From assembly GCF_000745125.1 (NCBI RefSeq), contig NZ_JQNF01000005.1, positions 372,001 to 436,000 of the forward strand: DNA of 64,000 bases, in the 5' to 3' direction. Below the pieces are notes generated by a model, which ran no database searches, had not been told where the DNA came from, and saw only the letters and a list, made by a program, of their open reading frames with translations. The translations under genes were made by a program, and so were the position numbers. Every line of letters begins with the position of its first letter. The stretch's first letter is position 1. The stretch comes from Carnobacterium jeotgali MS3 (GTDB taxonomy: Bacteria > Bacillota > Bacilli > Lactobacillales > Carnobacteriaceae). Of this stretch, positions 42,502 to 52,102 are shown piece after piece.

Positions 42502-42545
42502 AAAGTGCTTCAAAGTAATGTTTTTCTTACTTTGAAGCACTTTTG
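42502..42545 (+). terminator. Terminator of gmk-rpoZ
   Basis: AAAGTGCTTCAAAGTAA pairs with TTACTTTGAAGCACTTTT, a 17-bp perfect stem with a T-rich loop and a short T tail. Confidence 0.92.
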
Positions 42546-46856: not shown

Positions 46857-47806
46857 TAAAAATCATATTTATGGGGACTCCTGCTTTTTCAGTCCCAATA
46901 CTTGAAGCATTAATTGATTCAGAATATGAAGTGATTGCTGTTGTATCCCAACCGGATAGACCTGTGGGTAGAAAAAAAGTATTAACTGCTTCACCAGTCA
47001 AAGCTGCAGCAGTTAAGCATGGATTGCCTATTTTTCAACCAGAAAAAATTTCAGGTTCACCCGAAATGGATGCACTAATTGCACTAGAGCCAGATTTAAT
47101 CGTTACTGCAGCATTTGGGCAATTTTTACCGCAAAAATTATTATCAGTTCCTAAATACGGAGCGATTAATGTGCATGCTTCATTACTGCCTAAATATCGC
47201 GGTGGAGCTCCTGTTCACTATGCTCTTATGCAAGGAGAAAAAGAGACCGGCGTTTCTATTATGTATATGGAGAAAAAAATGGATGCAGGAGATATTCTTT
47301 CACAAAAATCATTAGAAATTACCAGAGATGATGATGTTGGGACATTATTTGATCGATTAAGTCTGTTAGGTAAAGAATTATTAATGGATACTTTGCCTAA
47401 ATTATTAGCAGGAGACATTACACCGGTAAAACAAGATGAAGCAAAAGTTACTTTTTCACCCAATATTAAGCGTGAAGAAGAGATGATAGATTGGAATAAA
47501 ACAGCAACTGAAGTAGATTTTCAAGTTCGCGGCATGCGTCCTTGGCCGGTAGCGTATACGGAGTTAGAAGGAAATAGACTAAAATTATGGGATGTAACGC
47601 CTACTGAAGAAGTAACAACGGCTGCTCCTGGAACGATTATACGAATCGAAAAAGAGGCAATCTATTTGGCATGTGGAAATCAAACCGTTTTAAAAATCAA
47701 CGAAGTCCAACCAGCTGGGAAAAGTAAAATGACTGTTATGGCTTTCTTAAGTGGAGTAGGAAACCAACTAAAAGTTGGAGAAATGGTAGGGGTATATGGA
47801 AACTAA
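46853..47806 (+). CDS. fmt: Methionyl-tRNA formyltransferase
   Basis: 317 residues from ATG 46853, with GGAGGCG upstream. It formylates initiator Met-tRNA using 10-formyltetrahydrofolate. The N-terminal hydrolase-like domain has FMGTPAFSVP and the active-site INVHASLLPKYRGGAPVH stretch; an OB-like C-terminal domain binds tRNA. The end overlaps rsmB by 11 bases. Confidence 0.96.
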   Translation: MIKIIFMGTPAFSVPILEALIDSEYEVIAVVSQPDRPVGRKKVLTASPVKAAAVKHGLPIFQPEKISGSPEMDALIALEPDLIVTAAFGQFLPQKLLSVPKYGAINVHASLLPKYRGGAPVHYALMQGEKETGVSIMYMEKKMDAGDILSQKSLEITRDDDVGTLFDRLSLLGKELLMDTLPKLLAGDITPVKQDEAKVTFSPNIKREEEMIDWNKTATEVDFQVRGMRPWPVAYTELEGNRLKLWDVTPTEEVTTAAPGTIIRIEKEAIYLACGNQTVLKINEVQPAGKSKMTVMAFLSGVGNQLKVGEMVGVYGN

Positions 47807-49172
47807 TCAAGAGCCACAAAAAAGAAATGTCAAAAAAACAAGTCGTTATTTAGCTATGTCAATTTTAGAACGGACTGATAAAACGGGTTCATATTCTAAT
47901 TTGCTTATTAACGAGGCGATTCAAAAAAATAAGTTGAGTGCAGCTGATGCTCGCTTATTAACCGAATTGGTATATGGCGTTTTGCAACGGAAATTAACTT
48001 TAGATTTTTATTTATCTTCATTTCTAGCTGAAGATAAAAAAATTGATATCTGGGTTCGCAATCTATTAAGATTGTCAATTTATCAAATGATTTATTTAGA
48101 TAAAATACCGGTACATGCGATTTTATTTGAAGCAGTTGAAGTAGCTAAGAAAAAAGGGCATATCGGAATCAGTAAATTTATTAACGGCGTTTTAAGAAAC
48201 GCTGATCGTAAAGGTTTCTCTAGCATTGAAACAATTAAGGATCCTATGGAACGTTTAAGCATTGAATTGAGCATGCCAAAATGGCTAGTCGAAAAATTCA
48301 CTGAGGACATTGGCTTAGAAGAAACTAAAAAAATGGGTGAATCTCTGCTTCGTCCGAGCCATTCAAGCGCTCGAGTAAATGAGAAGTTTTTGACAGTGGA
48401 AGAAGCTTTAGAAGCTATGGAAGAAGAAGGATTTGACGTTCGTAAAAGTGCTATTTCACCAGTTGGTATCGTCAGTGATGGTGGACATTTTGCTTCCTCT
48501 CCTTTATTTCAATCAGGTCAATTAACGATTCAAGATGAATCTTCTCAACTAGTTGCGCCTGCTTTACAACTAGAACCACATCATCAAGTTTTAGATGCTT
48601 GTGCTGCGCCAGGTGGAAAAACAACTCATATTGCTTCATATTTATCTGCTGAAGAAGGCGGAAAAGTAACGGCACTTGATCTGCATGAGCATAAAGTAGC
48701 TTTGATTACTGAAAACGCCAAAAGAATGCATGTTGAAGATGTTGTTACAGCAATGAAACTGGATGCTAGAAATGTAGACCAAGAGTTTTCTGATGAACAG
48801 TTTGATCGCATATTAGTTGATGCGCCTTGTTCTGGTCTAGGATTAATGAGACGTAAACCAGATATTAAGTATACTAAAAAAGAAAAAGACTTATTAAATT
48901 TGCAAAAAGTTCAGTTGGGTATTTTAGAACAAGTCGCTCCAAAACTAAAAGTAGGTGGACTTTTAGTTTACAGTACGTGTACAATAGCAAATGAGGAAAA
49001 TAAAGATACAGTTGACAAGTTTTTATCGTTACACACTGACTTTGAACAAGTTTCTGTCAAAGTTGAAGACTCGCTAACTAGATGTATAAAAAATGGATCT
49101 CTTCAACTTTATCCGCATGATTTTGGAACAGATGGCTTTTTTATCAGCTGTCTAAGAAAAGTACAGAAATAA
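47796..49172 (+). CDS. rsmB: 16S rRNA (cytosine967-C5)-methyltransferase
   Basis: 458 residues. An N-terminal NusB-like RNA-binding domain (about 10-135) precedes a SAM-dependent RNA m5C methyltransferase domain. The SAM loop is DACAAPGGKTTH. The two catalytic cysteines lie in DAPCSGLG and VYSTCTI. In Bacillus rlmN follows at this locus; here it is missing and stp comes next after a hairpin-containing gap. Confidence 0.95.
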   Translation: METNQEPQKRNVKKTSRYLAMSILERTDKTGSYSNLLINEAIQKNKLSAADARLLTELVYGVLQRKLTLDFYLSSFLAEDKKIDIWVRNLLRLSIYQMIYLDKIPVHAILFEAVEVAKKKGHIGISKFINGVLRNADRKGFSSIETIKDPMERLSIELSMPKWLVEKFTEDIGLEETKKMGESLLRPSHSSARVNEKFLTVEEALEAMEEEGFDVRKSAISPVGIVSDGGHFASSPLFQSGQLTIQDESSQLVAPALQLEPHHQVLDACAAPGGKTTHIASYLSAEEGGKVTALDLHEHKVALITENAKRMHVEDVVTAMKLDARNVDQEFSDEQFDRILVDAPCSGLGLMRRKPDIKYTKKEKDLLNLQKVQLGILEQVAPKLKVGGLLVYSTCTIANEENKDTVDKFLSLHTDFEQVSVKVEDSLTRCIKNGSLQLYPHDFGTDGFFISCLRKVQK

Positions 49173-49186
49173 GCGATTCAAAAGTT

Positions 49187-49232
49187 AAAACAAATAAACG
49201 GGAAGTTCTTTTCCCGTTTGATTTGTTTTTTA
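49187..49232 (+). terminator. Terminator after rsmB
   Basis: ACAAATAAACGGGAA pairs with TTCCCGTTTGATTTGT (one bulge) and is followed by TTTTT. Confidence 0.88.
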
Positions 49233-49255
49233 AGTAATTGTTGAGTATGTCTATT

Positions 49256-49309
49256 TCTGTATCATTTCACTACGGCTTGTTTATTCAAGCCGTAGTGAAA
49301 TGATACAGA
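49256..49309. repeat. Perfect 24-bp inverted repeat (hairpin) between rsmB and stp
   Basis: The arms at 49256-49279 and 49286-49309 are perfectly complementary, with a 6-base loop TTTATT. Arm landmarks are CTGTATCATTTC, CACTACGGCTTG and the reverse complement. No T run follows on either strand, so it is not a usual terminator, and a normal terminator already ends rsmB 24 bases upstream. It lies 63 bases before stp. Confidence 0.9.
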
Positions 49310-49371
49310 GAGTGAATAACCAATCGAAATTTTAATAAGAAACAAATTAGTGAAAGGTATGAGGTGGAACA

Positions 49372-50133
49372 ATGGAAGTTGTATTTCGCAGTGATACTGG
49401 TAAAAAGAGAAAGAATAATCAAGATTTTGCTGGTTACTTTATCAATAAAAACAATATTATGCTAGCGATTCTTTGTGATGGAATGGGTGGGCATCGAGGC
49501 GGAGATGTTGCAAGTGAAATGGCCGTATCTCAATTAGGACATTCATGGGAGGAATCGACTGTTCAGAATGCTGAACAAGTCACACAATGGATGTTGACCA
49601 GAATTAGTCGCGAAAACAAACGCATTTTAGAAAAATCACGTCAATTTTCTGATTTGGAAGGAATGGGGACTACGCTTGTTGCAACAGCATTGGTCGATCA
49701 AGAATTTGTGATTGCGAATATTGGCGACAGCAGAGGGTACCACTACACTGCCGGACGTTTTAACCAAGTAACTGAAGATCATTCATTGGTTAATGAACTA
49801 GTAAAAAGCGGCGAAATTTCTTTGAAAGATGCCGAAAATCATCCTAGAAAAAATGTTTTGACTCGTTCTCTAGGTGTAACAGATGAGATAGATATTGATG
49901 TAACGATTTTACCGGCCTTGCCAAATGATCAAATGTTACTTTGTTCAGATGGATTAACAAATATGGTTGAGGATCAAGAGATAAAAGATATTTTAAGCAC
50001 TAATAAATCGGCTGAAGAAAAAATAGATACGTTGATAGATGTGGCTAATGACCGTGGAGGGTTAGATAACATAACGATCATATTGGTTCAGACAAAAATA
50101 GAAGGGAGGGACAGCAGTCATGGAAATGGGTAA
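49372..50133 (+). CDS. stp: PP2C-type serine/threonine protein phosphatase
   Basis: 253 residues, ATG 49372 after GGTATGAGGTGG. It is a cytosolic metal-dependent phosphatase that reverses phosphorylation by the neighbouring PASTA kinase. PP2C motifs visible are SDTGKKRKNNQD, CDGMGGHRGGDVAS with Asp36, ANIGDSRGY and LCSDGLTNMV. It overlaps prkC by 14 bases, so kinase and phosphatase are translationally linked, as in other Firmicutes. Confidence 0.96.
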   Translation: MEVVFRSDTGKKRKNNQDFAGYFINKNNIMLAILCDGMGGHRGGDVASEMAVSQLGHSWEESTVQNAEQVTQWMLTRISRENKRILEKSRQFSDLEGMGTTLVATALVDQEFVIANIGDSRGYHYTAGRFNQVTEDHSLVNELVKSGEISLKDAENHPRKNVLTRSLGVTDEIDIDVTILPALPNDQMLLCSDGLTNMVEDQEIKDILSTNKSAEEKIDTLIDVANDRGGLDNITIILVQTKIEGRDSSHGNG

Positions 50134-52102
50134 AAAGCTAAACGGTCGTTACAAAATAATTGGAACAGTTGGTTCTGGTGGCATGGCAAATGTTTATCTT
50201 GCAAGAGATCTTATTCTCGAAAGAGATGTAGCGGTTAAAGTATTGCGCTTTGACTTTAGAGACGATCAAGATACAATCCGTCGATTTAAACGGGAAGCAT
50301 TAGCTGCAACAGAATTGATTCATCCAAATATTGTAAGTGTATATGATGTAGGAGAAGAAGAAAACAACCAATACATTGTTATGGAGTATATCAAAGGCAT
50401 GGATTTAAAACATTATATCCATAGTAATTTTCCTATACCCTACCAAAAAGTTCTAGATATTATGAGACAAATTCTTGCAGCCGTTGCAGAAGCTCATAAT
50501 AATCGGATTATTCATAGGGATCTAAAACCCCAAAATGTTTTAATAGATGAGTCAGGCGTCGTTAAAATAACAGATTTTGGTATAGCAGTAGCGTTATCAC
50601 AAACGTCTATTACACAAACGAATTCTTTATTGGGATCAGTCCATTATCTTTCGCCAGAACAAGCAAGAGGAGGAATGGCAACCAACCAATCAGATATCTA
50701 TTCATTAGGGATTATTTTATATGAATTGTTAACAGGAAATGTTCCTTTTGAAGGCGAATCTGCTGTGTCGATTGCTTTAAAGCATTTCCAAGAATCCCTT
50801 CCATCAGTGAAAGATTTTGATCATCGTATTCCACAGTCTTTAGAAAATGTTGTTCTTAAAGCAACGGCAAAAGAAACGATTGACAGATATCGTTCCGCTC
50901 AAGAAATGGCTGCTGATTTAGCCACCTCTTTATCGCCTAAAAGAATTAATGAATCAAAATTTTCCCCAGCCAGTTTGATGGAGAAAACAAAAATATTGGA
51001 ACCTATTGTTCCTGTAGCGCCTATTGCTTTAGCCGAAGAGAAAGTAGAACCGTCTAAAAGTGAAAAGCAAACTAAAGAAACAAAAAAAGATAAAAAGCCA
51101 AAGAAAAAGAAGTGGAAGATATTTTGGCTTACAGTATTGTTGCTCATACTCATTGTTACAGGTGGAATGGTTGCTTTTGCTCTTTCAGCGCCAAAAGATA
51201 TCTCTGTACCAGATGTAATAGGAATGTCCGAAAAGGAAGCCAAAGAGGCTCTTTCAACCGCTAATTTGCAAGTTAGCCAGACTATCATAGAGACAAGCGA
51301 AGATGTCGAAGAAGGACTTGTAACAAGAACAGATCCTGAAACCGGTACAACTGTTAAAGAGGAAACGGATATTAACTTATATATTAGTTCTGGAAAAGAG
51401 ACTGTTTCATTTAAAGACTATACAGGTGAACCTTATGAAGAAGTTCGAGCTGAACTGATGGAGCAAGGCTTTACTACTGAACGAGTTGATGAAAGCAGTG
51501 ATACGGTTCCAGAAGGCTCTATTATTGAACAAAGTATAGCTGAAGATGAAGAGGTTGTTCCAAGTGAAACAACCGTTACATTAACAGTTAGCACGGGCGA
51601 AGCTAGATTTGAAATGAAAGATCTAACGGGTTATTCTGAAAAAGGTGTACAAGTCTATGCAGATGAAAATGGGTTGTCTGTAACTTTTAAAGAAGAATAT
51701 TCTAATGATATTTTAGAAGGACAAGTCATCTCGCAAGACCCTGCAGCAGGAGAACTGTTGTCTAGCGGCGCTTCGTTCTCAGTCGTGATTTCATTGGGTA
51801 AAGAACCGGAACAAACATTTTCAAAAACGGTAACGATTCCTTACGCGAAACCCAAAAAAACAGATTCTGAAGCAGCGGTATCTGGCAGCGAATCCCAAGA
51901 GTCAGCTCCTATACCAAATGAGATTGTTATTTACATCAAAGATAAAGAACACTCTTTAGAGAATGAATTTCAAAAATTTACGATTACTGAAAATTTTGAA
52001 ACTGTCATTCCATTTATTCTCCAAGAAGGTGAAACTGGAACGTATCGGATTGAACGTGATGGAGAAGTTATAGATGAAAATACCAATGTTACAATTGACT
52101 AA
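50120..52102 (+). CDS. prkC: PASTA-domain membrane serine/threonine kinase
   Basis: 660 residues. The kinase domain (about 8-270) has the GSGGMANVY loop, Lys40, HRDLKPQN (Asp134), DFG (Asp152) and a Thr-rich activation segment at 162-167. A basic juxtamembrane linker leads to one transmembrane helix (about 334-356). Three extracellular PASTA repeats (about 358-430, 431-498, 499-565) sense muropeptides or lipid II. About 90 further extracellular residues form a strand-rich C-terminal extension. It controls cell wall growth and division. Confidence 0.96.
   Translation: MEMGKKLNGRYKIIGTVGSGGMANVYLARDLILERDVAVKVLRFDFRDDQDTIRRFKREALAATELIHPNIVSVYDVGEEENNQYIVMEYIKGMDLKHYIHSNFPIPYQKVLDIMRQILAAVAEAHNNRIIHRDLKPQNVLIDESGVVKITDFGIAVALSQTSITQTNSLLGSVHYLSPEQARGGMATNQSDIYSLGIILYELLTGNVPFEGESAVSIALKHFQESLPSVKDFDHRIPQSLENVVLKATAKETIDRYRSAQEMAADLATSLSPKRINESKFSPASLMEKTKILEPIVPVAPIALAEEKVEPSKSEKQTKETKKDKKPKKKKWKIFWLTVLLLILIVTGGMVAFALSAPKDISVPDVIGMSEKEAKEALSTANLQVSQTIIETSEDVEEGLVTRTDPETGTTVKEETDINLYISSGKETVSFKDYTGEPYEEVRAELMEQGFTTERVDESSDTVPEGSIIEQSIAEDEEVVPSETTVTLTVSTGEARFEMKDLTGYSEKGVQVYADENGLSVTFKEEYSNDILEGQVISQDPAAGELLSSGASFSVVISLGKEPEQTFSKTVTIPYAKPKKTDSEAAVSGSESQESAPIPNEIVIYIKDKEHSLENEFQKFTITENFETVIPFILQEGETGTYRIERDGEVIDENTNVTID

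Follow-up and report, generated by a model that had tools for sequence, protein, structure and literature searches.

The window, by which we mean the whole 64,000-nt stretch of DNA analysed, carries a 54-base palindrome in the gap between rsmB and the stp-prkC gene pair, which encodes a cell-wall-sensing kinase (prkC) and its phosphatase (stp), in the following arrangement.

47796-49172, forward strand: rsmB, 16S rRNA methyltransferase, the upstream gene (Pfam Methyltr_RsmB-F 3e-59, NusB 6.6e-32)
49195-49228, forward strand: T-tailed intrinsic terminator of rsmB
49238-49265, forward strand: candidate promoter TTGTTG-16-TATCAT (hypothesis), its -10 hexamer within the left arm of the palindrome
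49256-49279, forward strand: left arm, 24 nt, its outer 16 bp invariant in five species
49280-49285, no strand: loop (spacer), 6 nt, constant in length and variable in sequence, inverted in species G001
49286-49309, forward strand: right arm, 24 nt, its outer 16 bp invariant in five species
49362-49367, forward strand: ribosome-binding site of stp, AGGTGG, read directly
49372-50133, forward strand: stp, PP2C-type phosphatase, the first gene past the palindrome (Pfam PP2C_2 2.4e-16)
50120-52102, forward strand: prkC, PASTA Ser/Thr kinase, overlapping the end of stp (Pfam Pkinase 4e-55, PASTA 1.3e-42)

The two arms are complementary at all 24 positions across the 6-nt loop and no T run follows them, the tail reading GAGAGTGAATAA. 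Both features had been described in the original prediction and both are confirmed, as is the conventional terminator that it placed just upstream, at the end of rsmB. The region folds with a z-score of -10.5, some 10 standard deviations below shuffled sequence, which excludes a chance origin. The stem had also been described as exceeding every terminator in the window, and it is indeed the longest perfect inverted repeat there, but length in itself is no distinction, long stems being common genome-wide. A survey of 864 kb of the window genome (G000), one third of the whole, gave 34 perfect hairpins of at least 20 bp, reaching 26 bp, so that a long stem is normal for a terminator in this genome. 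Terminators in these 864 kb are often perfect stems of 20-26 bp, preceded by an A tract and followed by a T tract, and so look bidirectional. The stp palindrome is the sole perfect hairpin of at least 18 bp in the 864 kb that has neither tract; the others are flanked by tracts as terminators are. With arms of at least 13 bp, four tract-free hairpins were found in the same sequence: the stp palindrome, a palindrome before rex, a 14-bp case, and a 17-bp perfect hairpin (L080:2159-2200) about 260 nt upstream of an ORF that by eye resembles a transposase.

Intrinsic terminators consist of a G+C-rich hairpin followed by a T run. The palindrome resembles those of G000 in being a long perfect stem in an intergenic gap, but differs in having no T or A tract and in lying before a gene start, behind a separate T-tailed terminator. 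It could still be imagined to terminate, attenuate or block transcription as a backup to the rsmB terminator, a role that its very stable stem directly behind that terminator would suit. We consider this improbable, since neither strand of the palindrome has a T run, the other long hairpins of G000 do carry A or T tracts, and a T-tailed terminator or long stem is already present upstream in all six species of the genus that were analysed. Searches against Rfam gave no match above the gathering score, the sub-threshold matches being mostly of the microRNA type that is typical for perfect hairpins.

The palindrome is present in five of these six species of the genus, once in the window genome and once in each of four others, always between rsmB and stp and 56-62 nt upstream of the stp ATG; it is thus single-copy, kept at stp and not peculiar to one strain. 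The other 12 genomes of the family lack it; an stp orthologue was found in these as in all 18 family genomes searched. It is absent also from other genera among 395 genomes of the order, apart from one weak match (G064) that we reject, as it spans part of one arm and the loop and by eye resembles coding sequence. A covariance-model search of 295 order genomes returned the genus only, plus four matches elsewhere (E 4e-4 to 5e-3 per genome) in about the number expected by chance; those in G097 and G043 were rejected as relatives, not being located at stp. Searches of plasmids and viral contigs returned no copy, and the one match in the phage collection is spurious and partial, covering 30 bases.

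These results bear on the origins that the original prediction had offered. Dispersed repeats of the REP or MITE type have several copies per genome, which the palindrome does not, and its single copy, together with the plasmid, viral and phage searches, speaks against that idea. Confinement to one genus does mean that it arose or was gained there, as a mobile palindrome, a repeat family or the scar of a lost gene would have been, but its single copy, its constant place and the lack of relatives in plasmids, viral contigs and phages largely refute such readings, and we now find them scarcely credible. Against a scar in particular, the stem is nearly unchanged between species at saturating divergence, and rlmN is missing from this place in the order relatives checked. 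The prediction's remark that rlmN occupies this place in Bacillus-type genomes is beside the point, since in 11 order relatives checked it is rsmB, not rlmN, that precedes stp. Its suggestion of a regulatory hairpin before stp-prkC, by contrast, is backed by position and conservation. Among the titles and abstracts returned by PMC searches on the stp-prkC operon none reports such an element, and we know of none of this kind described upstream of these genes.

How strongly is the palindrome conserved? As a yardstick we used the four-fold degenerate sites of four neighbouring genes, at which the window species and the other species of the genus agree in 47-54% of cases. Between all pairs of species the stems are identical at 45-48 of their 48 positions, against 36-49 of about 60 in the downstream flank. 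Arm and loop lengths are constant in the five species, 22 of the 24 stem pairs never vary, and not one of the 120 pair cells holds a G-U pair. Variation is confined to the inner part of the stem, with one double change from C-G to A-U, which keeps the pairing, and one A-C mismatch in G002. Set against the orthologous places in G004, the 34 long perfect hairpins of G000 have stem identities with a median of about 0.8; the stp palindrome reaches 0.96, which ranks fourth, and its alignment score is the highest of the 34. In part of the same species the terminators after prkC and rsmB are altered in sequence. Stem conservation alone is nevertheless suggestive rather than conclusive, because some T-tailed terminators are conserved too, such as that after rpoZ (window 42502-42543), where five species share one and the same stem while mostly agreeing at only about half of their four-fold sites.

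Does this constraint act on RNA or on DNA? A duplex of about 26 bp in the stp-prkC leader, cut by RNase III or shielding the 5' end, might set the stability of the mRNA, in which case transcripts would begin upstream or read through the rsmB terminator, and thus carry the duplex. The fold is very stable (about -38 to -43 kcal/mol) in each of the five species that have it, the double change preserves pairing, and the distance to the stp start is fixed. There is also precedent, in that leaders occluding the 5' end stabilise mRNAs in Bacilli, the aprE and ermC leaders being 5' stem-loop stabilisers of Firmicutes (reviewed in PMC3997798). Like them, the stp palindrome is a stable stem-loop in the leader region, outside the ribosome-binding site; those stabilisers, however, rely on structure near a mapped 5' end, whereas the stp palindrome is known from sequence, and this sequence is itself conserved beyond pairing. 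A structured leader should show compensatory changes beyond chance and a stem that is kept while its sequence drifts, and neither pattern is seen: covariation is not significant, as 345 of 500 shuffles reach the level of the one double change, and the mismatch in G002 breaks a pair. Pairing alone, moreover, leaves the invariant outer arms and the absence of G-U pairs unexplained, and the terminators at the same loci have changed sequence freely in part of the species. The invariant outer arms and the lack of any G-U pair favour constraint on the DNA sequence over RNA pairing alone. We regard a leader hairpin of this kind as the main rival to a DNA site, though less likely than not.

Three further candidates were rejected. 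In the window species an ORF beginning at an ATG near 49248, a possible leader peptide, reads through the palindrome, but it is not conserved, since the sequences of the other species, read by hand, have in-frame stops (for example CAC TAA, with a C-to-A change). In G000 the left arm could alternatively pair with TAGTGAAA, which precedes the ribosome-binding site, but on inspection this is not kept in G001, G004 or G005. A T-box or riboswitch in the longer gap of G002 and G004 gave no Rfam match.

A parallel is found in the same genome. The only other conserved T-free palindrome in the 864 kb is the one before rex, TCAATATAATTGTGATTAACATCACAATTATATTGA (L113:10585-10620; G000 C5:290585-290620), which is 36 bp long, perfect and tract-free, and sits behind a terminator, with the rex ORF 39 nt further on. 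It contains TTGTGA-N6-TCACAA, which we take to be the Rex box. The downstream ORF encodes both Rex domains (Pfam PF06971 and PF02629), and the palindrome was matched in all six species, partly in G003. Both palindromes are perfect and T-free, stand behind a terminator shortly before a gene start, are conserved in the genus, and show an inverted spacer and a symmetric double change. They differ in length (36 against 54 bp), in the recognisable core of the Rex operator and in the conserved promoter-like TTGAGT-17-TATGAT downstream of it; furthermore stp, unlike rex, does not encode a DNA-binding protein. To our knowledge the stp palindrome matches no motif, and none of dif, parS or the known operator motifs fits it.

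The symmetric changes need not reflect RNA structure. In G001 the rex palindrome has a symmetric double change in its arms and a spacer inverted from TAAC to GTTA; likewise the spacer of the stp palindrome is CTTATT in G005 and, inverted, AATAAG in G001. Template switching between inverted repeats gives both spacer inversion and homogenisation of the arms (PMC8604942; PMC8794818), and such switching during replication probably helps to keep the arms identical here and flips the spacer. Since paired changes and inverted loops both occur at the rex DNA operator of the same genomes, they are no proof of RNA function. It might even be argued that the palindrome has no function and is kept perfect solely by template-switch repair, the inverted spacer of G001 being the product described for this process (PMC8604942) and the same type of inversion being seen at rex. 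Template switching equalises the arms, however, and does not hold their sequence across species at about 50% four-fold identity, which makes this explanation very unlikely.

The setting of the palindrome points to a regulatory role. Among 56 sampled order genomes of other genera, stp mostly begins 9-40 nt after the preceding gene; a few have longer gaps, and in none of them was a hairpin of at least 11 bp found within about 400 nt upstream of stp. In the 11 relatives checked, rsmB ends 9-28 nt before stp (10 identified by motif, one as an equivalent ORF). In the palindrome-bearing species the gap is about 185-330 nt and opens with a T-tailed terminator or long stem; all six species have a hairpin or long stem with a T run after rsmB, its sequence differing in three. 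In G004 (L072:5405-5619) and G005 (L073:5052-5267) this terminator has grown to an imperfect stem of about 200 nt (about -57 kcal/mol) that ends in a T run, the G004 copy having no Rfam match. Because the rsmB terminator precedes the palindrome, a separate promoter for stp-prkC is expected within the ~140 nt that remain, the largest part of which is the palindrome. The pair TTGTTG-16-TATCAT scores best in G000, G002 and G004, near-best in G005 and poorly in G001, and no candidate score is higher than the 95% level of shuffled sequences. The rest of the gap yielded no conserved promoter, and by eye an opposite-strand promoter would have no -35 at a suitable distance. We infer that the palindrome overlaps the stp-prkC promoter, with TATCAT in the left arm as the candidate -10 element.

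From these comparisons of sequence and position we conclude that the palindrome is probably a genus-specific cis-regulatory element of stp-prkC rather than a repeat or scar, or a site that simply stops transcription. More tentatively, the likeliest of the readings considered is that it acts as a DNA operator overlapping the promoter. Operators combine dyad symmetry near a promoter with conservation of sequence across species, and both are found here, the nearness of the promoter following from the preceding terminator. An ancestral close-packed rsmB-stp operon would have been split in the genus by the rsmB terminator, and expression of the kinase and phosphatase would be governed by a DNA-binding regulator, dimeric or tetrameric, that recognises the palindrome. 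Were transcription to start near 49272, the inner stem (ACGGCUUG-loop-CAAGCCGU) would form a hairpin at the very 5' end of the transcript and could make the transcript more stable. Several points tell against an operator: 54 bp is long for a single one, the candidate promoter does not rise above shuffled sequence, and some T-tailed terminators are conserved in sequence too. Recurrence of the 16-bp half-site is not clearly above control, nor is that of the inner 18-bp core, which recurs only with mismatches, so that no regulon or regulator was found. The lack of further copies does not exclude an operator, since nearly every genome likewise yields just one copy of the full rex palindrome in the same DNA search. 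A more specific proposal is that a dedicated novel regulator, with one site per genome, puts the PASTA kinase/phosphatase operon under separate transcriptional control in this one genus; on present sequence evidence we would call this rather unlikely.

The one species without the palindrome, G003, also lacks codons 1-41 of stp, including the DGMGG metal-binding motif, while its prkC is open. Its truncated stp (L052; G003:C2:1644262-1644897, reverse strand) has the ribosome-binding site joined directly to codon 42, apparently through a deletion between GAGGTGGA and GAGGCGGA, so that the phosphatase is probably inactive, or else the assembly is wrong. The absence of the palindrome looks like loss, because the sister of G003 in the tree, G001, has it. 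This joint loss of palindrome and stp start, a single case, fits a link between them and proves nothing.

As an element the palindrome is of a known kind. Work on PASTA kinases and their phosphatases has mainly concerned their activity; in this genus stp-prkC appears to have given up its tight association with rsmB and to have acquired a control element that is strongly conserved, so that the pair may be under transcriptional regulation of its own. The palindrome could be used as bait for its putative regulator and, with its counterpart at rex, it serves as a bacterial case in which the spacer of a perfect palindrome has been inverted.
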